This document shows, piece by piece, positions 396 to 24,477 of a DNA stretch of 32,099 nt. The notes beneath the pieces are model-generated. The model saw only the letters and a list, made by a program, of their open reading frames with translations. It did not search any database and had not been told where the DNA came from. The stretch covers positions 1-32,099 of the forward strand of contig CAKZPH010000298.1 of the NCBI GenBank assembly GCA_937138605.1. The letters are read 5' to 3'. This DNA is from an uncultured Ignavibacteriales bacterium (GTDB lineage: Bacteria; Bacteroidota; Ignavibacteria; Ch128b). How positions within the stretch are numbered: the first letter of the stretch is position 1; every line of letters begins with the position of its first letter. The position numbers were made by a program, and so were the translations under genes.

Positions 396-662
396 ATGAT
401 TGAAAAGGAAGTGACAATTTTAAATAGAGCTGGGTTGCATACCAGACCTGCAGCCACGTTGGTTAAATTAGCCTCTAAATTTAAATCGGACTTTTACTTA
501 ATGCAAGATAACTTAGTAGTAAATGGTAAAAGTATTATTGGTGTAATGACACTTTGCGCGGAGCAGGGGAGCAAGTTAAAACTTCGTTTCGATGGAGAAG
601 ATGAAGAAGAGGCTGCAAAGGAAATAGTTGATTATTTTAACAGGGGATTCGATGAACTTTGA
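396..662 (+). CDS. ptsH: HPr phosphocarrier protein
   Basis: 88 aa; GLHTRPA (His15 site) and NGKSIIGVM (Ser46 region) are HPr signatures. Confidence 0.95.
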   Translation: MIEKEVTILNRAGLHTRPAATLVKLASKFKSDFYLMQDNLVVNGKSIIGVMTLCAEQGSKLKLRFDGEDEEEAAKEIVDYFNRGFDEL

Positions 663-2424
663 TTTAATTGAAAAACTAAAAGATAAAGATACAGTCATAT
701 TAACAGGAATACCTTCGGCGCCAGGGTATGCCATTGGAAAGTGCCTCAAATATGAAAAAGAAAAGTTTGAAGTTTATCCTTCGGTGGTTTTGGATGTAAA
801 TTCAGAGTTAGAAGATTTCCAGAATGCTATTGAAAAATCAAAAAAGGAATTAAGAAAGATTATCGATGAAGCAAAAAAGAAAATTTACGATGATAAAATG
901 GTTTCTATTTTTGAGGCTCAGTTGATGGTGCTCGAAGATCCACAATTAATTGATGCCATCAAAAATGAAATCATCAAAAACAAGCATTCAGCAGATTATT
1001 CCATACATTCAGAATTTTCTAAATATATAGAGCCATTGCAAAAATCAAATGACATATCACATAAAGAAAGAGCAAAGGATATTGAAGACATCAAACTTAG
1101 AATAATTAGAAACCTGAGAAAGAAAAGGTGGGAATCGAAACTCACACAATCTAGAATTATTTTTGCACATGAACTTTCAGCTGCCGATGCACTGCTATTT
1201 GTTCGAAATGAAGTTCTTGCATATGTTGCTGAGGGTGGCTCACTTACTTCTCACGCTGCCTTAATTGCAAGGGCATTAAATATTCCAGCTGTTTTTGGTA
1301 TCGAAAATGTGTTAAACAAAATCTCATCCGAAGATGAAGTTATAGTTGATGGATTTCATGGGTTAGTTATTAAAAATCCTGGTCCTAAATTTATTGAATA
1401 CTATAGAAAAAGAATTATTGAATATGATAAACTGAAAAAAGACTTATCGGAACTTATTAATGTAGAATCGAAAACAAAAGATAATGTAAGAGTCAAATTA
1501 TATGCTAATATGGATTTACTTTCAGAGATTCCTTCTTTAATTGCATTTGGCGCTGAAGGAATTGGTTTATTTCGTACGGAAAATCTATTCTTTGATCTGG
1601 GAGATTTTCCTTCTGAATTAGAACAAACTGAAATTTATTCTTCACTTGCGGAAAAACTTTATCCAAAAATTTTAACAATTAGGACATTCGATCTTGGTGG
1701 AGATAAAATTAATCTCATGAATTATAAAGAGGCCAATCCTTTTCTTGGTTGGAGAGGGATAAGAGTATTACTTGATAATAAACCGATATTGAAGAATCAA
1801 CTAAGAGCAATTCTTAAAGCATCAATTTACAAAAATGTTAGGGTAATGATTCCAATGATTTCCTCGGTTGATGAAATTGTTATGACGAAGGAGGTTTTAG
1901 AAGAAGTTAAAAATGAGTTAAGCATGGAAAAAGTTAGATTTGATGAAAACATTCCTTTCGGTATTATGATTGAAGTTCCATCGATTGTATGTTGTTTGAA
2001 TGAAGTTGCTCAATTAGTTGATTTTGTAAGCGTGGGTACGAATGACTTAACACAATATTTACTTGCTGTCGATAGAGCTAATCAAAAAGTATTTAAACTT
2101 TATCAACAATTTCATCCTTCGGTTTTCCGTACCTTGAAAGTAATATTAAATGATTTAAAGGAAACAAAAATTGAAGTTAGTATTTGTGGAGAATTAGCAT
2201 CTAATTTTATGGCAATACCACTTTTGATTGGCTTAGGCTATCGATATTTAAGTGTGAACGAATATTTACTGCTTCAAATCAAAAAATTAATTTTATCTCT
2301 CGATGCTTCTGAATGTGAAGATTTAGCTAACAAAGTCTTAAATGCCTGCACTCAGGATAAAATCATCACAATAATAAATGAATTCATGCAAAAAATAGAA
2401 GGAATAGACTATGAATCCTTATAA
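652..2424 (+). CDS. ptsI: Phosphoenolpyruvate-protein phosphotransferase (PTS enzyme I)
   Basis: GGSLTSHAALIARALNIPAVFG phosphohistidine domain; GAEGIGLFRTE and SVGTNDLTQYLLAVDR PEP-binding motifs. The ATG at 652, preceded by AGGGG, is preferred over the TTG at 628; overlaps the ptsH 3' end. Confidence 0.95.
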   Translation: MNFDLIEKLKDKDTVILTGIPSAPGYAIGKCLKYEKEKFEVYPSVVLDVNSELEDFQNAIEKSKKELRKIIDEAKKKIYDDKMVSIFEAQLMVLEDPQLIDAIKNEIIKNKHSADYSIHSEFSKYIEPLQKSNDISHKERAKDIEDIKLRIIRNLRKKRWESKLTQSRIIFAHELSAADALLFVRNEVLAYVAEGGSLTSHAALIARALNIPAVFGIENVLNKISSEDEVIVDGFHGLVIKNPGPKFIEYYRKRIIEYDKLKKDLSELINVESKTKDNVRVKLYANMDLLSEIPSLIAFGAEGIGLFRTENLFFDLGDFPSELEQTEIYSSLAEKLYPKILTIRTFDLGGDKINLMNYKEANPFLGWRGIRVLLDNKPILKNQLRAILKASIYKNVRVMIPMISSVDEIVMTKEVLEEVKNELSMEKVRFDENIPFGIMIEVPSIVCCLNEVAQLVDFVSVGTNDLTQYLLAVDRANQKVFKLYQQFHPSVFRTLKVILNDLKETKIEVSICGELASNFMAIPLLIGLGYRYLSVNEYLLLQIKKLILSLDASECEDLANKVLNACTQDKIITIINEFMQKIEGIDYESL

Positions 2425-3439
2425 AGAATTCGATTCTGGCGACATGTATCTTGTTCTTAAGGATTATCATAAACAAGTAAAACATATCATTAATTCAAAG
2501 ATTGAGATTGAAAAAAAATTGTATTCTTCAATCAATAAAATTGTCGTCACTGGACTTGGAGGTTCAGCCATTTCAGGTGATGTTGTTTACACTTTATTTT
2601 ACGACCAAATAACAGTGCCTTATTTTGTTAACCGAAACTATGATCTACCAAATTTCATTGACGATAAAACGCTCGTTATAGCATGCAGTTACTCAGGAAA
2701 TACGGAAGAAACACTTTCAGCATTTCATAATGCTATTTCTAAAAATTGCAAGGTTATTACTCTTAGTTCCGGTGGAAAGTTGAAAGATATGGCGAATGAA
2801 CTCGGTGTACCCCATTTCAGTGTTCCTTCAGGTTATCAACCAAGATGTGCAATTGGATTAATGCTTACAACTCTCATAAGAATTTTTGAAAAGCTAGAAT
2901 TATACCGTCTTTCGGAGGATTTCTATTCTGAGGTACTAAACTTGTGGTCCAGAAAATCTAATGAATATGCTCACGCAGAAAGTAAACCGTATGATCTTGC
3001 CACCAGATTATTGGGGCGATTTCCAGTGATTCATTCAACTGAACTATTACAATCAATTAACGTAAGGTTTCGTAGTCAACTCGCAGAAAATTCTAAAGTT
3101 TTATCCTACAGTGGGTTTATTCCAGAACTTAATCATAACGAAATCATTGCTTGGGAAAAGTACGACGAAAAATTTTTACCTGCTATTCTTATTCAAATCA
3201 TTGACGAAAATGATCATCAAAGAAACAAATTAAGATTTTCCATAACACGTGAAATACTGAGTGAAGTGAAACTGGAAAATATTGTTTTACAAAGCACTGA
3301 AAAAAGTTATCACTTACGAATCTTCGACTTGATTTATTTTGTTGACTGGGTTAGTTTTTACCTGGCCGTTATGAGGAAAATTGATCCAACACCAATTAAA
3401 AATATCAATGTGCTTAAAGAAACTTTGTCGAAAAATTGA
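2411..3439 (+). CDS. SIS-domain sugar-phosphate isomerase, bifunctional phosphoglucose/phosphomannose isomerase-like
   Basis: GLGGSAISGDV and SYSGNTEETLSAF SIS motifs; C-terminal region resembles the archaeal-type bifunctional PGI/PMI family. Confidence 0.85.
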   Translation: MNPYKEFDSGDMYLVLKDYHKQVKHIINSKIEIEKKLYSSINKIVVTGLGGSAISGDVVYTLFYDQITVPYFVNRNYDLPNFIDDKTLVIACSYSGNTEETLSAFHNAISKNCKVITLSSGGKLKDMANELGVPHFSVPSGYQPRCAIGLMLTTLIRIFEKLELYRLSEDFYSEVLNLWSRKSNEYAHAESKPYDLATRLLGRFPVIHSTELLQSINVRFRSQLAENSKVLSYSGFIPELNHNEIIAWEKYDEKFLPAILIQIIDENDHQRNKLRFSITREILSEVKLENIVLQSTEKSYHLRIFDLIYFVDWVSFYLAVMRKIDPTPIKNINVLKETLSKN

Positions 3440-6254
3440 TTTACTTATTCTTTTCCTTCTCCTCATTTTTTCAGAAGGACAGGCTCAATTTACATATTTT
3501 GGAAAGAATAAAGTTCATTACGAAAAGTTTAACTGGTTCGTTCTAAAGACTGAACATTTTGACATCTATTACTATCCAGAAATTACCGAGATTGCTGAGA
3601 TTGGGGCTTTAATAGCGGAAGAAGGTTATAATGAGTTGAAAGTAAAATTTAATCACCAAATACTATATCGAATTCCACTTATCTTTTACAATACTCATAT
3701 CCATTTTCAGCAAACTAACACCATTCCGGGACTTCTTCCTGAGGGTGTAGGAGGATTTTTTGAGTTTATTAAAGGTCGTGTCGTAATTCCGTTTGAGGGT
3801 TCGATTGAGAAATTTCGTCATGTCATTAAGCATGAACTGGTTCATGTTTTTATGTTAAACAAAATAAGAAGAATACAACAAGATTTTAGATTAACTTCAG
3901 AAACACTACCACCACTTTGGTTTGTTGAAGGACTAGCTGAATATTGGTCTACAGACTGGGATTCCCAAGCTGAAATGATTCTAAGAGATGCTGTTTTAAA
4001 TGGTTATGCAGTTGGATTAAATGAAATAGATAAGGTTTCCGGAACTTACTTAATGTACAAATTAGGACAATTGCTGATGCATTACATTTCAAAAACATAT
4101 GGCGAACATAAGATACTGATGTTAATGGAAAACTCATGGAAATCATCAAACTTTGAGGATGTCTGGAAATATACGTTTGGTGTAGACTATAAAGAATTTG
4201 ATCGAGATTGGTTGTATTATCTCAAGAAAAGATATTATCCCATTATTTCTGATAGAGATTTACCCGGGTATTCAGTTAATAAATTGACAAATTCCGGATT
4301 TAATTTCAGTCCTGTTTTTTACGAAAAGAAAAATGAATCCTCAATTTACTATTTAGGTAATATTCGAGGTTATACTTCAATCTATCGAATTCCTTTTGTC
4401 AAAGAAGGTGAAAGAAAATTCTCCGAACCACAACTTGTACTTCAAGGTGAAAGCTCAGATGAATTTGAATCATTACATCTTTTTAGAACCAGTTTTGGTA
4501 TTTCAAGAGATGGGAGAATAGTCTTTACTTCCAAATCCAAAGGTCGAGATAAGATATACATTTTTGATATCAATCAAAACAAAATTACTTTAAAGCTTTC
4601 TTTTGATGAGATTACAAGCATATCCAATCCTTCATTTTCACACGACGGTAAGAAAATAACTTTTTCGGCCATTGATAATAAAGGTTACAGCGATATTTAT
4701 GTTTATGAATTTAATCGTTCTAAGTTAATTCGATTAACAAACGATCTTTATGATGATAAGACGCCCGCTTTTTCGCCAGATGACAATATAATAGTTTTTA
4801 CATCAGACCGGATGATTTTCAATGGTAAAACCTTCTATAATCTTTTTTCAATCAAAGTTGATAACTTTGAACTTACTCCAATCACAGCTTTGAATCAAAA
4901 TTTTTCTTATCCCAAGTTTACAAGTTCTAAAATTTTATTTACTTGCGACTATGATAACGTGAATAACATTTGGTCACTTGATTTTAATACTGATGGTAAT
5001 GGCAATTTTATTTTTGACGACAAAATGAAAAAAGTAACCAACTTTTCCACCTCAACTTTCGATCCTTTCATTATTAACGATACAACATTAATCTTTTCAG
5101 CCTTTGAAAAATTTAGCTTTCAGATTTTTTCTATCAACAATTTCATATCTATGATGGATTCTATTAACTACTATGTATTAACTAAAATTGGCGGAATGAA
5201 ACTTCACTGGTTTGTTTCTAAAATTGATGGTATCAGGATTAAAGAACGATATAAATACGAAAGAGAGTACACGTTAGATTTTGCTCAAAGTCAAATTTCC
5301 ACCAATCCTGTTTATGGAACAACAGGAGGTGCAATTTTCGCAGTCAGTGACTTGTTAAGTGATGAATATTATCAATTTTTAGTTTTCAATACTGCTCAAT
5401 CGCGTGATGAAATTTTGAAAAGCTTTAATGTATTGATATCTCGAATTTCATTGGCGCAAAAGACAAATTTTGCTTACGGTGTATATCACTTCTCTGGTAG
5501 AAGATATGATATTAGAGACTCTGACGAATATTTTTACGAAAGAAGTTTTGGTGTTTACTTTGCGTTGAGTTATCCGTTTTCATTTTTCCGTCGCTTGGAA
5601 GCTAGCGTAATGCTTGGAAATTCAAATAAGGAAGTCTTCTATTCTTTCAAAAATCGCAAAGCACTTTTACTGACCAATACCATCTCTTACATTTTTGATA
5701 ATAGCCTCTGGGCATCCACCGGACCAATTGATGGCTCGAGACTTTTAATCCTTCTTGGCCAAACTAATGATATAAAATTTTCAAACGTTAATTACTATAG
5801 TTTTATGCTTGATTATCGTAATTATTTACGACTGGGAATGAAGAGTGCATTTGCTTCTCGCTTTCAGTTGTTTATTAATGAAGGAAAGGAAGCACGACGA
5901 TTTTTTATGGGAGGTAACTGGGATTTGCGAGGTTATCCAAGATGGTCTATCAAAGGAGAAAAATTATGGTTGTCTTCTTTCGAATTTCGATTTCCTTTGA
6001 TTGATCAAATATCTTTAAAATTCCCATTTTTAACGGTTAATCTATATGAATTCCGTGGAGCAACATTTTTTGATATAGGAAATGCATGGGATGTAAAATA
6101 CAAAGAAACTCTTGGTAGCATCGGTTTTGGATTAAGAATGAATTTGTTTGGCGTGCTTGTTTTACGGTACGATATTGGTAAACGAATAGAGGATAGCTTC
6201 AGAAGATTACAAGATAGAATGTTTTATCAGTTTTTCTTCGGATGGGATTTCTAA
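3408..6254 (+). CDS. Peptidase MA-like gluzincin + TolB-like (PD40) beta-propeller + Omp85/surface-antigen-like C-terminal barrel
   Basis: ATG at 3408 gives a signal peptide (LLILFLLLIFSEGQAQ). HELVH at 3831-3845 with WFVEGLAEYWS downstream; PD40-like repeats (FSHDGKKITFSA, FSPDDNIIVFTSDR); FFMGGNWDLRGY near 5900-5935 resembles the Omp85 L6 motif; C-terminal Phe as in a barrel beta-signal. Confidence 0.8.
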   Translation: MCLKKLCRKIDLLILFLLLIFSEGQAQFTYFGKNKVHYEKFNWFVLKTEHFDIYYYPEITEIAEIGALIAEEGYNELKVKFNHQILYRIPLIFYNTHIHFQQTNTIPGLLPEGVGGFFEFIKGRVVIPFEGSIEKFRHVIKHELVHVFMLNKIRRIQQDFRLTSETLPPLWFVEGLAEYWSTDWDSQAEMILRDAVLNGYAVGLNEIDKVSGTYLMYKLGQLLMHYISKTYGEHKILMLMENSWKSSNFEDVWKYTFGVDYKEFDRDWLYYLKKRYYPIISDRDLPGYSVNKLTNSGFNFSPVFYEKKNESSIYYLGNIRGYTSIYRIPFVKEGERKFSEPQLVLQGESSDEFESLHLFRTSFGISRDGRIVFTSKSKGRDKIYIFDINQNKITLKLSFDEITSISNPSFSHDGKKITFSAIDNKGYSDIYVYEFNRSKLIRLTNDLYDDKTPAFSPDDNIIVFTSDRMIFNGKTFYNLFSIKVDNFELTPITALNQNFSYPKFTSSKILFTCDYDNVNNIWSLDFNTDGNGNFIFDDKMKKVTNFSTSTFDPFIINDTTLIFSAFEKFSFQIFSINNFISMMDSINYYVLTKIGGMKLHWFVSKIDGIRIKERYKYEREYTLDFAQSQISTNPVYGTTGGAIFAVSDLLSDEYYQFLVFNTAQSRDEILKSFNVLISRISLAQKTNFAYGVYHFSGRRYDIRDSDEYFYERSFGVYFALSYPFSFFRRLEASVMLGNSNKEVFYSFKNRKALLLTNTISYIFDNSLWASTGPIDGSRLLILLGQTNDIKFSNVNYYSFMLDYRNYLRLGMKSAFASRFQLFINEGKEARRFFMGGNWDLRGYPRWSIKGEKLWLSSFEFRFPLIDQISLKFPFLTVNLYEFRGATFFDIGNAWDVKYKETLGSIGFGLRMNLFGVLVLRYDIGKRIEDSFRRLQDRMFYQFFFGWDF

Positions 6255-7411
6255 TGTTATGTAATAAATGTTTTCGTTATAAGAGCCTGATCTCGTTTTC
6301 AATAATGACATTAATATTTTTTATATCCTGCACGAAAAAGATCCAGATAGAAAAATATTTGGAACCTGAAAATAAGTGGCAGTCTTTTGGATATGATTCT
6401 TCAAGAAATTTTTACATACGAAGCGATCTTAAATTACCACTTAAACAGAAGTGGGAAGTAGAGTTAGAAGCTGGTATCAGTCATTCTTCCATTACATCAA
6501 TCTCGAATTTTGTGTGTGTCGCTGATCTTAAAGGTAACGTATATTTTCTTAATCCTGAAATTGGTAGAATTCTAAGCAAAATTTCATTAAAGCAACCAAT
6601 TCTTACAAGTGTAATAGTCAGGGAAAGAGATTTAATTATTTCACTTGCTGAGACTAAAAACAAAAAATCTCAGCTTGTTCTTTACGACTTGTTAAACGGT
6701 AAGGTAAAAAAAACCTTTGAGGTTGAAGGTTCAATAGAACGAGAGCTTGTTTTACACAAAGATTTTCTTATTGCTACTACTACAAGTGGCAGAATTTATT
6801 CATTAAAGTATGACTTAAACAAAATTTGGGAAATTCAACTCAATGAAGAATTAAATTGTCATCCTGCTTCTTCTAATAATTTATTTGTTACGGTTTCATT
6901 AAAAGGAAATTTGTTTTTAGTTGATATGATGATAGGTAAAGTTTTAAAAAAGATAAAAATTAGCTCAGGAGTTAATTCAGGTATTTCGATAAGTAATAAT
7001 TTAATTTATTTTGGAAATTCGGATGGTAATTTCTATTGTTTCACACTTGATGGATCAAAAGTTTGGCAAGAAAAATTAAAGGCAAGTGTTAAAGCAATTC
7101 CTTCAATTGACGATTCAAGTGTTTTCATCGGTGATTTGCTTGGTAATGTTTATGCTTTTGATAATAAAACAGGTAAGAAAAAATGGGAAACTTCATTTGG
7201 TGGTATGATTAACAACTCAATTCTGGTATTGAATAATCAACTAATCGTTCCTGATTCAAAGGGATTTATTTATGTTTTGGAAAAGTTAGATGGGGGATTG
7301 GTTCAAAAAATTGAATTAAAGGGTAGAGTCAAATTCTCTCCCGTTTTAGTAAAAAACAAAGTATTTATCGGTTACGATGATAAAAAGATCGCTGCTTATG
7401 AGAATGATTAA
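6242..7411 (+). CDS. BamB-like PQQ-repeat beta-propeller lipoprotein
   Basis: Lipobox-like FFISC near the N-terminus; repeated blades such as VFIGDLLGNVYAFDNKTGKKKWETSFGG and IYFGNSDGNFYCFTLDGSKVWQEKL. Confidence 0.8.
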   Translation: MGFLMLCNKCFRYKSLISFSIMTLIFFISCTKKIQIEKYLEPENKWQSFGYDSSRNFYIRSDLKLPLKQKWEVELEAGISHSSITSISNFVCVADLKGNVYFLNPEIGRILSKISLKQPILTSVIVRERDLIISLAETKNKKSQLVLYDLLNGKVKKTFEVEGSIERELVLHKDFLIATTTSGRIYSLKYDLNKIWEIQLNEELNCHPASSNNLFVTVSLKGNLFLVDMMIGKVLKKIKISSGVNSGISISNNLIYFGNSDGNFYCFTLDGSKVWQEKLKASVKAIPSIDDSSVFIGDLLGNVYAFDNKTGKKKWETSFGGMINNSILVLNNQLIVPDSKGFIYVLEKLDGGLVQKIELKGRVKFSPVLVKNKVFIGYDDKKIAAYEND

Positions 7412-8102
7412 GTTGAAATACATTTTACTCTGGATACTTACGTATTCATACATGAGCGCTCAAAATGATTATGTGCGATTACAGGTCAAACTTGATAATG
7501 ATTATGGCATTTTTATAAATCAATACTTTTTAGGTGAATCAAAATTACTTGACACAAATCTTAAATCAGGTATTTATGAAATTAAATTAGTACGAATTAG
7601 TGACTTTTCATTATTAAAAAAGAAGATAAATTTTGATAGGGATTCAAAAATTGAAATAAAAAGTCTTCGCTCAATTCTAATTTCGACAAGTCCTGTAAAC
7701 GCTCATGTGTATGTTGATTCAATTTTTTATGGTTATACTCCACTCAAGATTTTATTTAATTCGTCAGATCAAAAAATTGAAATACAAAAAAACGGTTTTA
7801 AACCAGTATCACTAAATACATCTGAGATCAACCAAGATTTTTTAGATATAAGTATGGAACCTGAATATAGTTTGAAGAAGCCAAATTCAAGTTTTTATAA
7901 GTTTCTTACTTTGGGCTCAATGATTTTAAGTGGAATAATTTCTGTTCAATTCAAAAACAAAGCCAATAAACTTTACGAGGAATCAAAAATAAATCCAGAT
8001 TTAATGAAAAAAGTCCGAAAATACGATACCATTTCAGCTATATTTTCCATCAGCTTGCAAATTAATTTTGGTATTTTTACATATTTGATTTTAACGGAAT
8101 AG
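7398..8102 (+). CDS. PEGA-domain exported protein
   Basis: Signal peptide (ILLWILTYSYMSAQ) and PEGA-like STSPVNAHVYVDSIFYGYTPLKI...IEIQKNGFKP. Confidence 0.65.
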   Translation: MRMIKLKYILLWILTYSYMSAQNDYVRLQVKLDNDYGIFINQYFLGESKLLDTNLKSGIYEIKLVRISDFSLLKKKINFDRDSKIEIKSLRSILISTSPVNAHVYVDSIFYGYTPLKILFNSSDQKIEIQKNGFKPVSLNTSEINQDFLDISMEPEYSLKKPNSSFYKFLTLGSMILSGIISVQFKNKANKLYEESKINPDLMKKVRKYDTISAIFSISLQINFGIFTYLILTE

Positions 8103-8112
8103 TCAAAAATAA

Positions 8113-8685
8113 ATGAGGAAAAGAATGAAACAGCTAATCTTTTTGATCTCTGTCGTAACTCTTGTTTCAATTTTAGTTAGTTGTTCAAAAAATGATGAAG
8201 AAGATTTGTTCAAAACAGCAAAGGAGGATTTACAAAATCAAAATTTGGAAGGGGCAAAAAATAATTTAGAAAAACTTGTTAATAAAAATCCCTATTCTGA
8301 ATTTGCACCTGAGGCATTTTTTATCCTGGGTCAAATTTATCAATCAATGGAAACAGATTCAATTCACCGAATTGAATACAATAAAATTGCAATTGATTAT
8401 TACAATCAATTAATCAATAACTTTCCCAACCACGAAAAAGCTCCCGAAGCACTTTTCATGGTTGCCTTTATTAATGCAGAAATTTTCAAAGATTATAACA
8501 CGGCGGGATTGAATTATAGAAAGTTTTTGAAAATGTATCCAACACACGAACTTGCCGAATCTGCGAGATTGGAACTCGAATTTTTAGGAAAATCACCAGA
8601 GGAAATATTAAAACTTCATGGCATTGGTGATGAAAGCAAAGCAAGTAAATTGAAATCAATGAAAACAAAAGCTACGAATAAATGA
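8113..8685 (+). CDS. TPR lipoprotein, BamD-like outer membrane assembly factor
   Basis: Lipobox-like SILVSC; tandem TPR-like helices with BamD/YfiO features (NPYSEFAPEAFFILGQIYQ, YYNQLINNFPNHEKAPEALFMVAFI). An ATG at 8125 is an alternative start. Confidence 0.7.
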   Translation: MRKRMKQLIFLISVVTLVSILVSCSKNDEEDLFKTAKEDLQNQNLEGAKNNLEKLVNKNPYSEFAPEAFFILGQIYQSMETDSIHRIEYNKIAIDYYNQLINNFPNHEKAPEALFMVAFINAEIFKDYNTAGLNYRKFLKMYPTHELAESARLELEFLGKSPEEILKLHGIGDESKASKLKSMKTKATNK

Positions 8686-12764: not shown

Positions 12765-13769
12765 TTGGACTTGAAATATTTAATTTCATTTAGCAATACA
12801 TTGCTATTACTTTTCAAAAAATACGGAATTTACTTACTTAAGGTATTTGTAACCGTTGGATTGTTAGCATACTTTTTAACTCGAATTAAATTTGAAAAAA
12901 TTCTTTTTGGATTGAAGTTTGTTGATTTTTCTATATTCGGTGTTGTTGTGTTGTTGTTTTTTGTAAACCTTTTTCTTCAATTCGTTCGGTGGAAAACACT
13001 TGTAAAGACAGTAGCAAAGAATGTTCAGACTAAAGAGATTCTGGAATCGTTGCTCATTGGAATTTCAGCGGGGTCTTTTACACCAGGCCGTACAGGTGAA
13101 TATTTTTTACGAAAATTACCATTGAAAGAAGTATCATTTTCAACAGTTATAACATTGACTTTTATTGATAAAATGATGCTTTTAATTAATGTCATTTTTT
13201 GGGGCTCGATTGTCAGTTTTGGTATGATGATATATTATTATAATGTTGATTGGTTTATTGTCTTTTCACTTTTCATAATTTTTGTTTCTGTTTTTGCAGG
13301 CTTATTTTCATTACTTTACTCTAAAAGGTTTTATAACTTTCTGAAAGATATCATATCAAAATTGCCAATGAAATTTGAATTGGTAAAAAAACTCATAAAA
13401 CCTTTAGCTGAGTTAGATAATAAATTAATCTCAAAACTACTTGTTCTTGCTTTTTTGAATTTTAGTGTAATAATTTTTCAATTCTCACTAATTGTTTTTG
13501 CTTTCGATAGTCACTTAAGGTTTGAAAATTTAGTTATAGCTTCAATCCTGGTTTTCTTTGGTAAAACTTTAATTCCAGCTATCTCCTTGGGAGAAATAGG
13601 AGTTAGAGAAGGAGCTTCAATATATTTCTTTGGTATTTTTGGATGTAGTGAATCATTTGCATTCAATGCATCTCTTCTTCTTTTCGTTGTGAACTTATTT
13701 CTTCCTTCTTTAGTCGGTTTAATTCTACTTCTAAAACTCAAAAGAATAGATAGAAATTGGCAAGTATAA
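12765..13769 (+). CDS. Flippase-like/lysylphosphatidylglycerol synthase TM-region family membrane protein
   Basis: Multi-TM protein with SAGSFTPGRTGEYFLRK and SLGEIGVREGASIYFF, typical of the UPF0104/LPG_synthase_TM family. TTG start, uncertain. Confidence 0.8.
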   Translation: MDLKYLISFSNTLLLLFKKYGIYLLKVFVTVGLLAYFLTRIKFEKILFGLKFVDFSIFGVVVLLFFVNLFLQFVRWKTLVKTVAKNVQTKEILESLLIGISAGSFTPGRTGEYFLRKLPLKEVSFSTVITLTFIDKMMLLINVIFWGSIVSFGMMIYYYNVDWFIVFSLFIIFVSVFAGLFSLLYSKRFYNFLKDIISKLPMKFELVKKLIKPLAELDNKLISKLLVLAFLNFSVIIFQFSLIVFAFDSHLRFENLVIASILVFFGKTLIPAISLGEIGVREGASIYFFGIFGCSESFAFNASLLLFVVNLFLPSLVGLILLLKLKRIDRNWQV

Positions 13770-14905
13770 CTTTATTCCCCAATCTAGTTTGGCTTCTTTT
13801 TTTGATTTATATACTTTTTCTAATTTTTTTGTTTACAGGAATGTTTCGGCTGAAAAGCAGGAAATTTATCAATAATCTAAAAGCCTCAGTTATAATACCA
13901 TTTAGAAACGAAGCCGAAAAACTTTACCGATGTGTTGAATCAGTTTTAAATCAATCACTCTCAAAAGTTAGATATGAAATTATACTCGTGGATGATCATT
14001 CAACAGATGATTATGAAAATTACATCAAGCATTTTATAGATCAAAATATGGTGAGAATAATAAAATTAAAATCCGATTTAGATGGATATGGGAAAAAAAA
14101 TGCTATCGAGAAAGGAATTCAAGTAGCTAACAACGAAATTATTGTAACCACTGATGCGGACTGTTATCATCAAAAAGATTGGCTGAAAACGATGATTGAA
14201 AGTTTTGATGAAAAAACAGGTTTTGTTGCAGGTAAAGTCATATATGATGGATGTAAAAATTTTTTTGAGGAAATTCAAAAAATTGAATTTGCCAGTCTTG
14301 TTAGTATTGGAGCATCTTTCATTGGAAATAAATTACCATTAATTGCAAATGGTGCAAGCTGTGCATATAGGAAAGATTTATTTTTGAAAGTCGGTGGTTT
14401 TAAGGATAATTCTAATCTTGTTTCGGGCGATGAGGAATTTTTGATGCAAAAAATATGGATGCAATCTGATTATAAAATTGTTTTTAATAGGTCTGTAAAC
14501 AGTACAACAATAACAGAACCAATTTCGAGAGTAACGAGATTCATTAATCAAAGAAAAAGGTGGGTATCAAAAGTGCTTCACTACAAAAATTTTTATGCGA
14601 TACCATTGCTTGTTCTTCTCTACTTGTTCTATTTATCCCTGCTGATATTAATTATTTCAGGTCTTTTTGATAATAAAATTTTAGAACTGAGCATAATAAT
14701 TTTGTCGATGAAAACATTTTTTGATTTTTTTTATATGGCAAATGCGTATAGATTATTATCACTTTCAGAATCAAAACGTAATTTGATAAATCTAATCTTT
14801 CTTTTTCCTGTTGCAGAAATTGCTCATATTATTTATATAACAGTTGTACCAGTACTGAGTGCGTTGACTGGATTTGATTGGAAAGGAAGGGCATATAGAA
14901 GATGA
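13757..14905 (+). CDS. Family 2 glycosyltransferase, membrane-associated
   Basis: ASVIIPFRNEAEKLYRCVESVL, TTDADC, GDEEFL, QRKRW (QxxRW) and C-terminal TM segments. TTG start. Confidence 0.88.
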   Translation: MASITLFPNLVWLLFLIYILFLIFLFTGMFRLKSRKFINNLKASVIIPFRNEAEKLYRCVESVLNQSLSKVRYEIILVDDHSTDDYENYIKHFIDQNMVRIIKLKSDLDGYGKKNAIEKGIQVANNEIIVTTDADCYHQKDWLKTMIESFDEKTGFVAGKVIYDGCKNFFEEIQKIEFASLVSIGASFIGNKLPLIANGASCAYRKDLFLKVGGFKDNSNLVSGDEEFLMQKIWMQSDYKIVFNRSVNSTTITEPISRVTRFINQRKRWVSKVLHYKNFYAIPLLVLLYLFYLSLLILIISGLFDNKILELSIIILSMKTFFDFFYMANAYRLLSLSESKRNLINLIFLFPVAEIAHIIYITVVPVLSALTGFDWKGRAYRR

Positions 14906-15534
14906 GATTTATTTTTATTCATCCACCAAGAATTGTTCAATTACTTTTTAGTAATGTTATCTGGACGAATGTAACAAAAGAAATTCTTCTTACATTTGAT
15001 GATGGACCAAATTCAGAGACAACTGAAATTATTTTAAGAGTTCTAAATAAGTATAAAATAAAAGCATTGTTCTTTGTTAACGGTAAAAATGGAAAAGAAA
15101 ATTTTTCCTATCTGGAAGAAATTTCATCAGAGGGACATTTTTTTGGTAATCATACTGAGAATCATTTGAAAAACTTGAACAATTTATCAATCGGAAAAAT
15201 TCGAGAAGAAATTTTAAGAACTGATGAAATAATTTCACATTTTCAAAATAAAACTAATTTATTCAGACCCCCATATGGTAGAATAACTTTCAAACTTTAT
15301 CGAATTTTAAAGTCACTTAATCTAAAAGTTATGATGTGGACACTTTTAACAGAAGATTATCTTGGCGACTTAAACATAGTTAAGAGAAATATTGATCGTT
15401 ACTTAATGGAAAAGTCAATTATAATTTTCCATAATAATCCCAATGCTAAAAATATTTTACACGATTCTCTCGAATATTTAATTGAAAAATTAAACGAAAG
15501 GGGATTGCGAATTGGAGACACTTTCAGTTTTTGA
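14902..15534 (+). CDS. Polysaccharide deacetylase (NodB/CE4 fold)
   Basis: LTFDDGPN, GNHTENH and RPPYGR motifs in order; ATGA overlap with the upstream GT2. Confidence 0.9.
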   Translation: MRFIFIHPPRIVQLLFSNVIWTNVTKEILLTFDDGPNSETTEIILRVLNKYKIKALFFVNGKNGKENFSYLEEISSEGHFFGNHTENHLKNLNNLSIGKIREEILRTDEIISHFQNKTNLFRPPYGRITFKLYRILKSLNLKVMMWTLLTEDYLGDLNIVKRNIDRYLMEKSIIIFHNNPNAKNILHDSLEYLIEKLNERGLRIGDTFSF

Positions 15535-16642
15535 AATAAGCTTTGGTTTTGTTTTGACTTTTTATGTTTTGCAGCAAGTAATTTTTCTGTATGGTTTTTA
15601 TAAGAAACTTCCTATTAACAAAAACTATGAGCCATTTGTGTCTGTAATTGTAGCAGCAAGAAACGAAGAGAAGAACATACGCAGTTGTATAGAGTCCCTT
15701 TCTAAATTGGATTATCCTGAGGATAAACTTGAAGTGATAATCGTCGACGATTTCTCAACTGACCGGACAGGTGAAATCATAAGTGAATTTACTAGTCAGT
15801 TTAACTTTATAAAAAAAATTGTTCCACAAAAAAATATTATTAGTTATCCGGGTAAAACTAATGCTATTGCTAATGGTATTGAGTTATCGAAAGGAGAAAT
15901 AATCTTTACTACAGATGCGGATTGCGTAGTTAAACCTGAATGGATTAAAACTACTTTGAAGTATTTCAATGAAAATGTGGGAATTGTTCCAGGATTTACT
16001 TTCCAAAAATCGTATTCACAGTTTACAGGTATGCAAAACCTTGATTGGATTTACCTGTTAACAGTAGCAGCAGGTAGTATTAATCTAGGTGTACCGTTAA
16101 GCTGTATTGGTAATAATATGGCTTTTAGACGTGATGCATATGAAAAAGTGGGTGGTTACAAAAATATAAAGTTTAGTATCACCGAAGACTTTGCATTACT
16201 TCATAAAATTAACCGTAATACAAATTACAAAGTCGTTTATCAATCTGAACCTGAAGGGACTAATTTTAGCGAACCTTGTTTAGATTGGAAGTCTTTATAT
16301 CGGCAGAAGCATCGTTGGGGTACGGGTGGAATGGATGCACCTTTAATCGGTTTTATCGTGATGCTTTGGGGCTGGGCAACTCATCTTTTCATTTTACTTC
16401 AAGTTATTTTTGGCACTATGTTTACTTTAACTCTTACAGTTATAAAGTTTTTAAGTGATTTTATATTTTTATCTCTTTCACTCAAAAAATTCAAAATGAT
16501 GAAAGAGTTAAAATATTTCTTTGCATTTGAGATATATTTTATTTTGTACGTATTGATTTTACCTGCAATAGTTTTCTTTGATCGCAAAGTCATTTGGAAA
16601 GATCGCCAATATTCTAGTGATAAATATGTTAATTCTCTGTAA
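15512..16642 (+). CDS. Family 2 glycosyltransferase, membrane-associated
   Basis: VSVIVAARNEEKNIRSCIESL, TTDADC, TEDFAL, QKHRWGTGG (QxxRW) and C-terminal TM helices. TTG start preceded by AAAGGGG. Confidence 0.9.
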   Translation: METLSVFEISFGFVLTFYVLQQVIFLYGFYKKLPINKNYEPFVSVIVAARNEEKNIRSCIESLSKLDYPEDKLEVIIVDDFSTDRTGEIISEFTSQFNFIKKIVPQKNIISYPGKTNAIANGIELSKGEIIFTTDADCVVKPEWIKTTLKYFNENVGIVPGFTFQKSYSQFTGMQNLDWIYLLTVAAGSINLGVPLSCIGNNMAFRRDAYEKVGGYKNIKFSITEDFALLHKINRNTNYKVVYQSEPEGTNFSEPCLDWKSLYRQKHRWGTGGMDAPLIGFIVMLWGWATHLFILLQVIFGTMFTLTLTVIKFLSDFIFLSLSLKKFKMMKELKYFFAFEIYFILYVLILPAIVFFDRKVIWKDRQYSSDKYVNSL

Positions 16643-17615
16643 TTATTACGTAACATATAGATGTAACGCCGATTGTGAATTCTGTCATTTTGGTTACTCT
16701 TCTGACTTGAATAAAACTGCGTTTGCAAAAGAAGAGGATGTATTTAACAATCTCAGGCAAATTCGAAAATTAGGCGTAAAATTCATTGACTTTACCGGTG
16801 GAGAACCACTATTACACAAAAGTATTCATCTATTTGTGGAAGAAGCAAGAAAACTCAGGATGCAAACAAGCATAACAACTAATTGTTTGCTTTATCCAAA
16901 GTTCGCTGAAAAATTGGCAGGCAAAGTTAATCTTTTGCATTTCTCATTAGACTCGCCTGATGAAGAAGAACACAACAGAATTAGGCGAATAAATTGTTAT
17001 AATCATGTTATTGAATCAATAAAAATAGCAAAGTCCATAGGTGAATTCCCCGATATACTCTTTACAGTGACCAATGAAACCTATAAGAAACTTCCGGCAA
17101 TGTATGAGCTGGCAAGAAAGTACGAATTGATATTAATAGTAAATCCAGTTTTTAGTTATTTTGGAAATCTTGGACTTTCAGAGGAAACACTAGATTTTAT
17201 TGAAGAATTCTGTTATGGTAAAAAAGATATATATATTAATCCAGCTTTTATTGAATTAAGAAGAAAAGGGGGCAATGATATTAATGCACCATTATGTAAA
17301 GCAGTTAGTAGGGTAATTGTAATTTCTCCTTACAATGAGATTATTCTACCTTGCTATCACTTTGGGTTCAAGAAAATTCCAATTGATAGACCGATAGTTG
17401 AAATCCGTAAATCAGCAGAAGTTGAATATTTCAAAAAGATGGAAGGAAGATTTGATTTTTGTAAAGGTTGTACAATTAATTGTTATTTTGAACCGTCGTT
17501 TGCTTTTCCAACTAATTATTTTGCGTTTATAAGCGTTCCATCAAAATTTTATTACAGCTTCCACAAATTAATTAAACAGAAATTTCTTAAATTGAATAAT
17601 AAATTTCAGGTGTAA
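16626..17615 (+). CDS. Radical SAM protein with SPASM-like C-terminal cysteines
   Basis: CNADCEFC (CxxxCxxC), DFTGGEPLLH; C-terminal cysteines PLCKAVSR...LPCYHFG...FCKGCTINCYF. ATG at 16626 overlaps the GT2 end by 17 nt. Confidence 0.88.
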   Translation: MLILCNYYVTYRCNADCEFCHFGYSSDLNKTAFAKEEDVFNNLRQIRKLGVKFIDFTGGEPLLHKSIHLFVEEARKLRMQTSITTNCLLYPKFAEKLAGKVNLLHFSLDSPDEEEHNRIRRINCYNHVIESIKIAKSIGEFPDILFTVTNETYKKLPAMYELARKYELILIVNPVFSYFGNLGLSEETLDFIEEFCYGKKDIYINPAFIELRRKGGNDINAPLCKAVSRVIVISPYNEIILPCYHFGFKKIPIDRPIVEIRKSAEVEYFKKMEGRFDFCKGCTINCYFEPSFAFPTNYFAFISVPSKFYYSFHKLIKQKFLKLNNKFQV

Positions 17616-17623
17616 ACACAACG

Positions 17624-18478
17624 ATGTTTAAACGGATTTTAATTTTGAATTTGATTTTAATAACATTCGCTTTTTCACAAGAAAGTTTCTTGTACAGAGA
17701 AAGTAGATTTACTCTATTCCCGGCATCAAAACTTTTTCTGGCAAATTCATCTAATGTTTTTGAACCAAAAATTGGTGTAGGATATTTTTTGGAAAAAAGC
17801 GAACTAGCTATGAATATTGGAGTTAGTAGGGATTTAATTCATTATCATTTTAATCCACGATATTCTTTTGGCTTTGGAACTGAATTTTTTTCATGGTCAT
17901 TACTTGAACAAAAATCAAATTTCCGTTTTCCAGTCAAAGCAGTAGACTACATGTTTGGTAGTTATTTTGTTTTAAACGCGAAGTACAAATACTTCAACAT
18001 CTCAAATCGATTACGAATTAATCACATTTCTGCTCATCTTTCAGATGGATCGTATGATAATCTTACTGACAAATGGTTAGCTAATCAAGAACCTTCAACT
18101 TATAGTCGAGAATTCTTGCAATGGACCTCATCCATCATTTATCGTCAAATTCGGGGTTACATTGACTTAACTTACATTTTCCATACAATTCCAGAAATAA
18201 AAGGTAAGAATATTTATGGTCTTGGTTTCGAAGCTTCAATTTTGCACTTACCTTCTGTTAGATCTACCTTTTTTGCAGGATTTGATATAAGCTTACAAAA
18301 GCGCCTATCTAACAAATTCATAGCTGATAGAAATTTCAGCACAGGATTTTTTATTGGCAATCCAAGATTTACTCACCTTAGAATTACATATCAATACTTT
18401 AATGGATATAACTTCTTTGGCCAATTTAATTCAGAAAAACTTAACCGTTCATCAATTAATGTTAGTTTAATTTTGTAA
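17624..18478 (+). CDS. Predicted outer-membrane protein, possibly DUF1207-like
   Basis: N-terminal signal sequence; alternating hydrophobic/aromatic strands; INHISAHLSDGSYDN resembles a DUF1207 motif (family assignment tentative). Confidence 0.55.
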   Translation: MFKRILILNLILITFAFSQESFLYRESRFTLFPASKLFLANSSNVFEPKIGVGYFLEKSELAMNIGVSRDLIHYHFNPRYSFGFGTEFFSWSLLEQKSNFRFPVKAVDYMFGSYFVLNAKYKYFNISNRLRINHISAHLSDGSYDNLTDKWLANQEPSTYSREFLQWTSSIIYRQIRGYIDLTYIFHTIPEIKGKNIYGLGFEASILHLPSVRSTFFAGFDISLQKRLSNKFIADRNFSTGFFIGNPRFTHLRITYQYFNGYNFFGQFNSEKLNRSSINVSLIL

Positions 18479-18479
18479 T

Positions 18480-19487
18480 ATGAGTGAATTCTATTCTATA
18501 GGAGAAAACCAACCTTCAGGAGTAAAAAGATTATTTACAGGAAAGTACTCTTTTATTATTAACATATTGCTTTTAGTAATTACGTTCTTTACAACAACTG
18601 TGGCTGGTGTTGCTTGGATTTTAGGACCAGCGGCAGCCTTTGATCTAAGTAACTTTTCTATTGGATTACCATATTCCATTTCTATTCTTTTTATCCTTAG
18701 TAGTCATGAATTTGGACACTATTTTGCTGCGCGTTCACATCGTGTTAAAGCAACCTTACCTTACTTTATTCCTTTTCCTTTGATGGAATTTTTTTTGAAT
18801 TTTGGTACACTCGGAGCGGTTATCAAAACTCAATCACCTGTTCCTAATAAAAAAGCTATGTTTGATATAGGTGTTGCTGGTCCAATTGCAGGATTTATTG
18901 CATCAATCATTGTTTTGATTTATGGTTTTACTCATTTGCCTGGAATAGAATTTATTTTAAGAATTCACCCCGATTACTTTTTGAGAGCAGAGGAACCTGG
19001 AGGTCTTGCGTTGGAGTTCGGTCCAAGTCTGATGTATTTGTTTTTAGAAAAATTATTTACAAATCCTTCCTTAGAATTTGTGCCGCCAATGTCAGAAATT
19101 TATCATTATCCATACCTTTGCACTGGTTGGTTTGGTATGTTTGTTACGGCAATGAACTTGATTCCAGTTGGTCAACTTGATGGTGGGCATATTTCTTATT
19201 CTTTGTTTGGTTCGAGAACCCATCGTTTAATTGCAAATATTAGCTTTGCTTTACTCGTCGCATTAGGAATTGCAGGTTTAAGTTCCGAATTATTTGGATT
19301 AAATATATCATTGGGATGGACGGGTTGGTTGCTCTGGGCTTTGATACTAAAATTTGTTGTAAGATTATATCATCCTGAAATTCTCAGTCCTGAAGAACTT
19401 GATCCAAGAAGAAAGTTGATTGGTTATCTCGCAATTTTAATTTTTATTCTTTCATTTATACCAGTTCCTTTTTACATATCGTTTTAA
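18480..19487 (+). CDS. Site-2 protease family (M50) intramembrane metalloprotease
   Basis: HEFGHYFAAR (HExxH) and NLIPVGQLDGGHI (NxxPxxxLDGG) within a multi-TM protein. Confidence 0.92.
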   Translation: MSEFYSIGENQPSGVKRLFTGKYSFIINILLLVITFFTTTVAGVAWILGPAAAFDLSNFSIGLPYSISILFILSSHEFGHYFAARSHRVKATLPYFIPFPLMEFFLNFGTLGAVIKTQSPVPNKKAMFDIGVAGPIAGFIASIIVLIYGFTHLPGIEFILRIHPDYFLRAEEPGGLALEFGPSLMYLFLEKLFTNPSLEFVPPMSEIYHYPYLCTGWFGMFVTAMNLIPVGQLDGGHISYSLFGSRTHRLIANISFALLVALGIAGLSSELFGLNISLGWTGWLLWALILKFVVRLYHPEILSPEELDPRRKLIGYLAILIFILSFIPVPFYISF

Positions 19488-19510
19488 TAAATTTAATATG
19501 AATTAATATT

Positions 19511-20011
19511 ATGGAACAAAACCAAACTAAAACTAAAATTAAAACATTTTATCTCAAGTTCTATTCAATAATTAAGATTTTTGTTTTATTGATACTTTTT
19601 TTGCTTACATCCTGTGAGAAAAAATATGATAAAGTTATCGATCCAATTCAAAATAAACCACCGATTATAAGCAATCTCATAGCTCCAGATACATTAAATT
19701 TATCGACTGACACATTAAAGATAATTATTTCAATCAGAGCTATTGATTATGATGGGAAAGAAGATATTCAAAGTGTATTTTTTAACTCATACTTGCCAGA
19801 TGGTTCACCTTCAAGAAGTAATCCGATTTTAATGTATGATGATGGTAATTTGATTGTTAATGGCGACCAAATAGCCAATGATGGCATATATTCAAGAATT
19901 ATAATTCTTCCACCAAATACAACAAAAGGAAAATATCGTTTTGAATTTCAGGCTATAGATAAGAAAAACGCACGAAGTAACATAATAAATCATTTTATAG
20001 TGGTGAAATGA
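19511..20011 (+). CDS. Putative lipoprotein with Ig-like domain
   Basis: Lipobox-like LLTSC; beta-rich sequence with DDGNLIVNGDQIANDGIYSRIIILPP. Confidence 0.65.
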   Translation: MEQNQTKTKIKTFYLKFYSIIKIFVLLILFLLTSCEKKYDKVIDPIQNKPPIISNLIAPDTLNLSTDTLKIIISIRAIDYDGKEDIQSVFFNSYLPDGSPSRSNPILMYDDGNLIVNGDQIANDGIYSRIIILPPNTTKGKYRFEFQAIDKKNARSNIINHFIVVK

Positions 20012-21573
20012 AAAAAACTTGGTTATTATTAATCTGCATATCAATTAATCTTTTTGCTCAATCAATACCATATTTTTATTGGCTGGAGAGCAACAATCGC
20101 TTGTATAAATCATTACAAACTTCACCTGTACCAATCAGTAATTCTATCACAGATATTGTTTGTGTTGGGGATACTGTAATTCTTGGAACAGGTCGTGGCT
20201 TAAGCATAAGTTTTAACCGCGGAGAAAGCTGGATCAATTTTTATAAACACCCTGATTTCGGGACTGAAAGCATTTCTGCTTTAGCATATAAAAATGGATA
20301 CATTTGGGTTGCCACTGCCCATTCAGTTTTCAGGGATAATCAAACCTTACCAGAGGGGAGTGGTTTGAGATATTCATCTGACGGTGGAAAAACTTGGAAA
20401 AAAATTGACCAACCTGTTGACCATAAAGATAGTACAAAAGTTCGTTATGGAATTAACATTTTAAATGCTCTGCCCATAACAACAACTATAAATAACATTA
20501 CATATGACATTGGAATTACGTCCAGAGAAATTTGGATTGCATCTTTTGCTGGTGGATTAAGAAAAAGTTCAGATCTGGGTAAAACTTGGGAACGTGTTGT
20601 TATTCCACCCGACAATCTAGATTCAATCAAACCAACTGAAACATACAATTTTGACCTTTCACCGGTTAGTGGTGGGTATGGATTTCAAAGCAATTTAAAC
20701 CATCGAGTTTTCTCTATTTATGTTCAAAATGATTCAACAATTTGGGTTGGTACAGCGGGCGGAATTAATAAAACAACAGATGGCGGTAAAAGTTGGGTTA
20801 AATATAATAAGCAAAATCAAACAAATCACATTTCTGGAAATTTTGTTGTAGCAATTGGTGGAATGAAAATTTCTATGAATGATTACATCTTTGCAGCTAC
20901 CTGGAAAGCAGAAGACTTAACAGAAGAATATGGAATTAGTATCACCTCTGATGGTGGGAATAATTGGTCTATTTCAAATAAAGGCGAACGAATACATAAC
21001 TTTGGATTTCTATCACCATTTGCATATGCAGCCGGTTCGAATGGCCTTTTTAGGAGCGCTGATTTAGGTCAAAGCTGGATAAAAGCTCCAGAAATAGTTG
21101 ATTCACTAACTAACCAAAAATTGTGGACTAATACTTTTTACTCCGTGAACACTCAAGGTAATACAATTTGGGCGGGCTCGAATGATGGACTTGCGAAAAC
21201 AATTGAAACGGGTTTTCCTTGGTCCGCTGCTTGGAGAGTATATCAAGCTTTTGTTCCAGTGAAACGTAAAACGGAAGCTTATGCTTACCCGAATCCAGTC
21301 GACCCTGAAAATGATATTTTAAGAATTAAGTATACAACTGAAGGTAGAGATGAGAGAGTTACAATTAGGATTTATGATTTTGGAATGAACTTAGTGAAAA
21401 CCTTGATTCAGAATGCTCCCCGATCGGGGTTGATAGATGAAAGAATTCAACAAACGCAAATTTGGGATGGTAAAGATGAATTTGGAAATTATGTTGCAAA
21501 TGGTGTTTACTTCTTCGCCATTGAAATAGGAAACAATGAACCCGTATTTGGAAAAATAATAGTAATGAGATGA
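20008..21573 (+). CDS. Asp-box (BNR) beta-propeller exported protein with FlgD/T9SS type A-like C-terminal domain
   Basis: Signal peptide; about six SxDxGxxW-like motifs (FNRGESW, SSDGGKTW, SSDLGKTW, TTDGGKSW, TSDGGNNW, SADLGQSW); C-terminus YPNPVDP...VTIRIYDFG...NGVYFFAIEIG...GKIIVMR. Confidence 0.85.
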   Translation: MKKTWLLLICISINLFAQSIPYFYWLESNNRLYKSLQTSPVPISNSITDIVCVGDTVILGTGRGLSISFNRGESWINFYKHPDFGTESISALAYKNGYIWVATAHSVFRDNQTLPEGSGLRYSSDGGKTWKKIDQPVDHKDSTKVRYGINILNALPITTTINNITYDIGITSREIWIASFAGGLRKSSDLGKTWERVVIPPDNLDSIKPTETYNFDLSPVSGGYGFQSNLNHRVFSIYVQNDSTIWVGTAGGINKTTDGGKSWVKYNKQNQTNHISGNFVVAIGGMKISMNDYIFAATWKAEDLTEEYGISITSDGGNNWSISNKGERIHNFGFLSPFAYAAGSNGLFRSADLGQSWIKAPEIVDSLTNQKLWTNTFYSVNTQGNTIWAGSNDGLAKTIETGFPWSAAWRVYQAFVPVKRKTEAYAYPNPVDPENDILRIKYTTEGRDERVTIRIYDFGMNLVKTLIQNAPRSGLIDERIQQTQIWDGKDEFGNYVANGVYFFAIEIGNNEPVFGKIIVMR

Positions 21574-22610
21574 AAATGAAAAAACTAAAATTAAGTCTTG
21601 TTATTTTTTTTATACTTTTATTTGCTGATATAAATTTTTCATTTGCTCAGCCTGAAACTTCCAAAATTTCTTCGAGTCCTGGAGCTTTCTCTCGAATGGG
21701 ATTTGGCGCCAGAGGAATGGCCATGGGCAATGCCATGACATCAGTAATTTCTGGAAGTGTTAGTCCTTACTACAATCCTTCACTTAATGCATTCGTTGAT
21801 GATAATTTAATTCATTTAGGTTACTCTTTTTTAGCTTTAGACAGAAAATTAAATTTTGTTCAATTGAGCAAAAAAGTTCTTTTATATAAACGCGATGAAC
21901 TTGGCAACAAAACTGACGAAGTTTATTCTTCAGCGGGAATCTCAGTAGGATTAATTAATTCTTCAGTTGATAACATTGATGGAAGAGATAGAAGTGGTAT
22001 TCAAACAAAAACTTACTCCACATCTGAAAATCAATTTTTTCTATCAGTAAGTATAAGTCCATTTGACAGGTTGACTTTTGGAATAACTTCAAAGTATTAC
22101 CATTACTCTCTTTTTGAAAAAGTAAGTTCAAAATCACTCGGATTTGATTTTGGTATGATTTACAGAGCAATAGAAAGTGATAAAATTGGAAAAGTAGTTG
22201 TTGGTACATTTATTGGCGATATAAATTCAAAATACAGATGGGACACTGCACCCGTATACGAACAAGAGGGGAAGTTAACAATTGATAAGTTTCCATTACT
22301 TACAAGAATTGGAGTCAGTTACTACTTACCAAATGAAAACTTGATTGCAGCTTTGGATTTCGAATCAACTAATTTAGGTACAAAAATTTTAAGATTTGGG
22401 ACTGAATTAGTTTTAATAGATTTTGTAAGAATTCGACTTGGTATTGATAGATTGAATCTGGAAAATTCAGATATGATTCCTAAGATTTCCTTGGGATTTG
22501 GACTAAGGCATAATCTTTACGACTACGATTTTGAATTAAATTATGCGTTTGTAACTGAACCTTATTCACCTATGAATCAGCACATTATTTCACTCGGAGT
22601 TAAATTATGA
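21570..22610 (+). CDS. PorV/PorQ family outer-membrane protein
   Basis: Signal peptide; GFGARGMAMGNAMTS...SPYYNPSL typical of the N-terminal region of PorV/PorQ-like barrels; ATGA overlaps on both sides. Confidence 0.75.
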   Translation: MKMKKLKLSLVIFFILLFADINFSFAQPETSKISSSPGAFSRMGFGARGMAMGNAMTSVISGSVSPYYNPSLNAFVDDNLIHLGYSFLALDRKLNFVQLSKKVLLYKRDELGNKTDEVYSSAGISVGLINSSVDNIDGRDRSGIQTKTYSTSENQFFLSVSISPFDRLTFGITSKYYHYSLFEKVSSKSLGFDFGMIYRAIESDKIGKVVVGTFIGDINSKYRWDTAPVYEQEGKLTIDKFPLLTRIGVSYYLPNENLIAALDFESTNLGTKILRFGTELVLIDFVRIRLGIDRLNLENSDMIPKISLGFGLRHNLYDYDFELNYAFVTEPYSPMNQHIISLGVKL

Positions 22611-23503
22611 AAAATTTCGTGTTTGGTTTTTTTATAATTACAAATATTGTTTTTGCACAATCAGCAGGAGAAACGGGGTATTCTGTTCTTAAAATTGGAA
22701 CAGGTGCTAAAGAAATGTCCATTGGAACTTCTACAACTTCTCGATTAAACTCAACTTTTAGCTTAAATTATAATCCTGCCTTAATAACTGATTTTAATTT
22801 CACTTCATTTGGTTTTTCTCACAATGAATGGATTGAAGACCTTAGAAACGAATCAATTATCGCAAATAGTTTTCTTTTCAATATACCGTTTTTCATCTCA
22901 ATTAATTCAACAAATATTTCTAATATAGAAATTCGCACAGTGCCTGGTGAACCTGAAGGTGTGTTTGATGCACATTACTTTAGTTTTGGATTTGGTAGTG
23001 GATTTAGAATCACAAGTAGAATTTCTGTTGGAGTTCAAGCAAAATATCTTTATGAAAATATTTACGTCGATGAATCTAATGGATTTGCATTTGATGTTGG
23101 ATTATCTTATAAAAAGTTTCTCGATTTTTTAGACGCAGGATTAAGTTTACGAAACTTAGGTAAAACCGATAAGCTTAAAGAACAAGCAACTAAATTACCA
23201 ACAGAATTTCGTTTTGGTTTTAATTATGCAAATTTGATTCAATCAAATGAGTTTCAATTTTATCCTAGCTTTGAAATTCAAAAATTTATTAGAACAGATG
23301 AAGTTAATTTTCTGTTGGGTCTTAGTATAGAATTTAAGAAGTTATTAAGTTTTAGCGGTGGTTATAAAATCGGTACGGGATTAAATAATTTTTCTTTTGG
23401 AATCGGAATTAATTATAGAATGTTTCAAATCGATTATGCTCTTCTCCCATTTACTAAAAGTTTTGGAAATGCAAACATAATTTCAATTTCAGTTACTTTA
23501 TGA
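22607..23503 (+). CDS. PorV/PorQ family outer-membrane protein
   Basis: Signal peptide; KIGTGAKEMSIGTSTTS...FSLNYNPALI and FGFSHNEWIEDLRNE match the PorV/PorQ-like pattern; ATGA overlaps on both sides. Confidence 0.8.
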   Translation: MKNFVFGFFIITNIVFAQSAGETGYSVLKIGTGAKEMSIGTSTTSRLNSTFSLNYNPALITDFNFTSFGFSHNEWIEDLRNESIIANSFLFNIPFFISINSTNISNIEIRTVPGEPEGVFDAHYFSFGFGSGFRITSRISVGVQAKYLYENIYVDESNGFAFDVGLSYKKFLDFLDAGLSLRNLGKTDKLKEQATKLPTEFRFGFNYANLIQSNEFQFYPSFEIQKFIRTDEVNFLLGLSIEFKKLLSFSGGYKIGTGLNNFSFGIGINYRMFQIDYALLPFTKSFGNANIISISVTL

Positions 23504-24474: not shown

Positions 24475-24477
24475 CCC

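Follow-up and report, generated by a model that had tools for sequence, protein, structure and literature searches.

A putative zinc peptidase joined to a TolB-like propeller and an Omp85 barrel in Ignavibacteria, encoded beside a BamB-like lipoprotein gene

Introduction

Where the function of an Omp85 protein is known, it is mostly protein assembly or translocation. Omp85 barrels carry two lid-lock motifs: RGY/F lies in L6, and the other, on strand 13, reads FxDxG in the insertases TamA and BamA and GxDxG in FhaC (PMC4490367). POTRA domains are usual in Omp85 proteins, not universal, and the main text of PMC4104836 accepts subfamilies that lack them. One of these is the WD40-Omp85 subfamily of Heinz and Lithgow (2014), in which a TolB-like propeller stands before the Omp85 barrel without a POTRA domain; according to the same main text, it occurs across various lineages and can be likened to a fusion of BamA and BamB (PMC4104836). 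PlpD, too, has an enzyme domain ahead of its Omp85 barrel, and this patatin domain was shown by experiment to remain periplasmic (PMC11116518). At the BAM complex, the way in which stalled clients are selected by proteases has yet to be settled (PMC13067283).

Here we analysed a gene for a protein of 948 amino acids that appears to join a peptidase, a propeller and an Omp85 barrel in one chain. Our literature search for an already described protein of this kind returned PMC4104836 as the sole relevant paper, in whose main text the word "peptidase" is absent. A search for experiments or later functional studies on any family member found none. The "Metallo" subfamily named in the main text of PMC4104836 was set aside as a match because it is defined by PF00149, which is a different domain.

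Results

The window, that is, the whole stretch of 32,099 nucleotides analysed, holds the gene at positions 3408–6254 of the forward strand. Its frame is open up to the stop at 6254, its translated product ends in ...FFFGWDF, and its 5' end overlaps the upstream gene for a bifunctional phosphoglucose/phosphomannose isomerase by 32 bases. Orthologues share 44–67% identity over almost the full length. The N-terminus is a hydrophobic segment ending in GQA/Q, with a helix at residues 3–21 in the AlphaFold2 model, and was read from the sequence as a signal peptide (3408–3485, forward strand) with predicted cleavage after GQA (residue 26). All features that the initial annotation had listed, namely the signal peptide, HELVH, EGLAE, PD40 repeats, FFMGGNWDLRGY and the terminal Phe, were found on re-translation. 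A PHROGs search of the protein gave no match. By profile, model and conservation, it is nearly certain that the protein consists of a signal peptide, a zinc-peptidase domain, a TolB-like propeller and an Omp85 barrel, with no POTRA domain; the three-domain reading first proposed for it, including the identity of the barrel, held up against profiles, conservation, the AlphaFold2 model and fold comparison.

The gluzincin-type metallopeptidase domain spans 3528–4283 on the forward strand (residues ~41–292), and Peptidase_MA_2 was matched in 19 of 19 family members scanned. On the whole 948-residue protein this Pfam match had an E-value of 1.9e-7 and 31.5 bits, slightly under the cut-off of 32.4; in a genome scan the same gene reached 33.7 bits, above the cut-off, and the scan returned exactly three matches, namely the 3408–6254 gene and its two large paralogues. 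M61 was matched weakly (Pfam, E=7.4e-5). HELVH, the predicted zinc-binding and catalytic motif, lies at 3831–3845 (forward strand, residues 142–146), and EGLAE at 3927–3941 (forward strand) contains Glu178 and Glu174, the presumed third zinc ligand by comparison with gluzincins. The resulting spacing is HExxH-x27-E, which collagenase G probably also has. Modelled alone, the domain had a pLDDT of 79.8 and a pTM of 0.80, and its best Foldseek matches were collagenases G, H and T and M1 aminopeptidases, at probability 1.00 and with modest E-values, from 2.6e-3 (best) to 1e-2. M9, M1 and M61 peptidases led the matches, with probabilities up to 1.00. The protein thus has the conserved HExxH, the downstream Glu and, according to Foldseek, the fold that mark gluzincins (clan MA). 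Taken together, motifs, conservation and fold matches point to a putative gluzincin-type zinc peptidase, its function being predicted from sequence and model.

A TolB-like beta-propeller of about six blades follows at 4293–5183 (forward strand, residues ~296–592). PD40 was matched in this protein with E=3e-11 and in 19 of 19 members scanned, and TolB profiles matched as well. The AlphaFold2 model of the whole protein, built from a 67-sequence alignment, had a mean pLDDT of 82.9 and a pTM of 0.72, with low confidence at residues 101–123. Foldseek ranked TolB first for this model (1.8e-10), followed by TamA and BamA (~1e-9 to 1e-8); the TamA barrel alone (8us4) gave a TM-score of 0.70 by target length.

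The C-terminal region (5244–6251, forward strand, residues ~613–948) was assigned as an Omp85 barrel of about 16 strands by PF01103, by the strand count in the model and by the Foldseek matches to TamA and BamA. PF01103 missed the whole protein, scored 39.1 bits against a cut-off of 24 in the genome scan, and matched 10 of 19 relatives scanned. Sixteen strands were counted in the model between residues 621 and 946, which bears out the barrel that had been expected at the C-terminus. In the model, strands 11 and 12 flank the L6 signature LRGY (5925–5936, forward strand, residues 840–843), and the strand-13 signature FxDxG is present as FFDIG (6066–6080, forward strand, residues 887–891). Both occupy the lid-lock positions of BamA and TamA in the model, and the motif pair is intact. 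No POTRA domain was matched in Pfam and no alpha/beta segment stands between propeller and barrel in the model, in agreement with the earlier proposal that peptidase and propeller replace the POTRA domains. Accordingly, the protein has the BamA/TamA-related 16-strand barrel and the lid-lock motifs of an Omp85 protein and lacks the POTRA domain.

Across 67 aligned relatives, eight residues were invariant: H142, E143, H146, E174, G175, E178, R841 and D889. The HELVH/Glu constellation singled out in the initial annotation (H142, E143, H146 and E174) is among them.

The first search covered the window's genome and 40 relatives and found a match in all 41. When the peptidase domain served as query, 102 of the 149 genomes sampled from the phylum, and 72 of 84 genera, had a match, almost always in frames of ~950–1200 residues. 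The named contigs with matches belong mainly to Ignavibacteria, plus Kryptonia and two bins labelled Calditrichota, so that the window's genome is most likely from the Ignavibacteria as well. The same domain order, which it had been proposed to seek in relatives, was present in at least five subfamilies of peptidase-propeller-Omp85 architecture, with three such genes in the host genome. The two paralogues in that genome have the same architecture and are ~1069 aa (C301, L049:3580-6789) and ~1032 aa (C210, L050:1984-5082) long. The C210-type paralogue has HEFTH and frequently lacks a clean RGY motif, with MRSY or MKSY in its place. In a FastTree phylogeny of 73 sequences, HExxH was present in 65; the other eight formed a single clade with support of 1.0 beside subfamily B and are from genomes of other classes in the phylum. 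They keep the RGY/F motif and FxDxG; PD40 was matched in one of three scanned, and the profile of the 3408–6254 subfamily covers the propeller region in most. These eight (L182, L183, L184, L185, L186, L197, L198 and L214) appear to be natural pseudopeptidases.

A gene for a BamB-like PQQ-propeller lipoprotein lies at 6242–7411 on the forward strand and overlaps the 3408–6254 gene. Its signal peptide ends in ...FFISC, it is the best PQQ_2 match in the host genome, and it matched the BamB equivalog TIGR03300 with E=8.8e-32 and 110.2 bits, under the cut-off of 285.2. Among 71 loci on named contigs with at least 700 bases downstream, a homologue was next on the same strand in 62 and absent from nine. 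The predicted frames, with start codons called mechanically, overlap in 51 of these 62 loci, which suggests translational coupling of the barrel and BamB-like genes. A strict lipobox pattern was found in 35 of 60 BamB-like proteins, and most of the misses listed also have a Cys at the expected site. Within the stretches fetched, no BamB-like neighbour was found beside paralogues B and C.

The third gene of the conserved cluster encodes a secreted PEGA-domain protein (7377–8102, forward strand; PF08308, E=2e-9); of the 58 loci whose downstream sequence reaches far enough, 34 have it next. Upstream of the subfamily loci, 41 of 68 had the isomerase and 45 of 60 had PtsI; in the window, the genes for PtsI (PTS enzyme I) and the isomerase lie directly upstream at 628–3439. 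A gene for a BamD/YbgF-like TPR lipoprotein at 8113–8685 was rejected as a possible third partner: its score falls under the BamD cut-off, the genome encodes a stronger BamD on C291, and the gene adjoins the cluster in close relatives only. Farther downstream, positions 12765–26995 hold genes for glycosyltransferases, a radical SAM protein, a polysaccharide flippase-like protein and an LPG-synthase TM protein, resembling an envelope polysaccharide cluster.

The host genome also encodes a separate BamA-type protein on C76 (835 aa), identified from its sequence, its length and the highest PF01103 score, so that the 948-residue protein appears to be additional to BamA. Further Omp85 genes lie on C21, C167, C193 and C25, and there are three separate M48 matches. 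A PD40 protein of 1083 aa on C187, a weak match, was rejected as a family member when it proved to be a tricorn-type protease (L051:8372-11623), which has PD40 propellers, PDZ and S41 domains.

Discussion

The reading that we favour, tentatively and with a little less than an even chance, is that the peptidase faces the periplasm, attached to an Omp85 barrel, and works with the BamB-like partner in the assembly or quality control of outer-membrane proteins. The N-terminal peptidase and propeller would hang in the periplasm, a placement that we infer from the even-stranded barrel and the precedent of PlpD (PMC11116518). The propeller would take the docking or gating place of the POTRA domains and, with the BamB-like lipoprotein, might present outer-membrane or exported clients, and the peptidase could then, at the mouth of the barrel, trim or destroy clients that are stalled, misfolded or still precursors. 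The protein may in this way work beside the canonical BamA, forming a specialised branch of assembly or quality control. The adjacent BamB-like gene suggests such a built-in protease for the handling of outer-membrane proteins. Counting against this reading, BamB-like propellers are generic and the 6242–7411 protein is below the BamB cut-off; moreover, the BamB-like neighbour is missing from nine of 71 loci, and the clade of eight has no HExxH although its barrel is retained.

A possible, if rather doubtful, alternative is a dedicated processing enzyme, which would mature a single class of exported protein or peptide, with the barrel chiefly an anchor or exit channel. The fold is nearest to the domains of M9 collagenases and M1 aminopeptidases, enzymes whose substrates are peptides or extended chains, and the parallel subfamilies, several to a genome, suggest that substrates differ; however, both lid-lock residues are invariant, which would be needless for a mere anchor. 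It is improbable, in our view, that the protein is an assembly factor in which catalysis is secondary and the peptidase fold mainly a client-binding module. The well supported clade of eight, which keeps RGY/F and FxDxG without HExxH, speaks for this and suggests that catalysis is dispensable in some lineage, whereas HExxH in the other 65 tree sequences and its invariance in this subfamily argue that catalysis is under selection here.

It is quite improbable that the protein is a secretion device of the type formerly suggested for PlpD, with a barrel that would move either the peptidase and propeller or a partner out to the cell surface. HExxH proteases are often found among secreted enzymes, and Omp85 relatives such as FhaC do translocate proteins (PMC4490367). 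Nevertheless, a peptidase passenger is hard to reconcile with the large folded propeller that separates it from the barrel and with the overlapping gene for a lipoprotein, and we lean to assembly or quality control over secretion because strand 13 carries FxDxG, the form seen in the insertases TamA and BamA, and not GxDxG, as in FhaC. The initial annotation had offered a PlpD-like architecture secreting a protease passenger, and this idea is weakened by the finding that the PlpD domain remains periplasmic (PMC11116518). A chance motif or a mis-assembled fusion of unrelated genes can be dismissed, since full-length orthologues occur in many genomes and contigs and nothing was found in its favour; judged by sequence, the observation is far beyond chance, with residues invariant in 67 relatives and motifs that recur in distant subfamilies.

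Extending the assembly or quality-control reading, the family might form a widespread and unrecognised branch of outer-membrane biogenesis with insertase and protease in one polypeptide. The barrel would insert or hold clients, and the protein's periplasmic zinc peptidase, gated by the propeller and the BamB-like lipoprotein, would choose between assembly and destruction; we regard this larger picture as unlikely.

Protease and barrel in one chain are kept in at least five subfamilies, and the natural clade lacking HExxH offers a built-in control. The WD40-Omp85 class of 2014 gains a predicted enzymatic domain and, in this subfamily, also a candidate partner gene, which makes its function directly testable. 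The five-plus subfamilies, the phylum-wide distribution, the HExxH-less clade and the BamB-like neighbour of this subfamily are new in this analysis.

Among known systems, clostridial collagenase (M9) and M1/M61 domains have the gluzincin fold and the HExxH...E pattern in common with this protein; they differ in having no fused outer-membrane barrel, and identity in the fold alignments is ~9–17%. BepA with the BAM complex likewise places a zinc peptidase at an Omp85 barrel, but BepA is a separate M48 protein, whereas the Peptidase_MA/gluzincin domain here lies within the barrel chain, where Pfam matched no Peptidase_M48. The comparison with BepA and BamA made in the initial annotation thus stands solely as a functional analogy, the genome having separate M48 and BamA-type genes. 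PlpD also carries an enzyme domain N-terminal to its Omp85 barrel, but the enzyme is a patatin, there is no propeller and the POTRA domain is kept; no patatin domain was matched by Pfam in the 948-residue protein. TolB has the propeller fold in common but is soluble, belongs to Tol-Pal and has an N-terminal domain of its own, and BamB is a PQQ-type propeller lipoprotein similar to the neighbouring gene product, which falls under the BamB family cut-off. With WD40-Omp85 the protein has in common a propeller most like TolB that precedes the Omp85 barrel; the main text of PMC4104836 has neither a peptidase domain nor a partner gene for that subfamily, whereas both are present here. The protein is not a one-off fusion and fits the WD40-Omp85 class of 2014, here with a peptidase domain.
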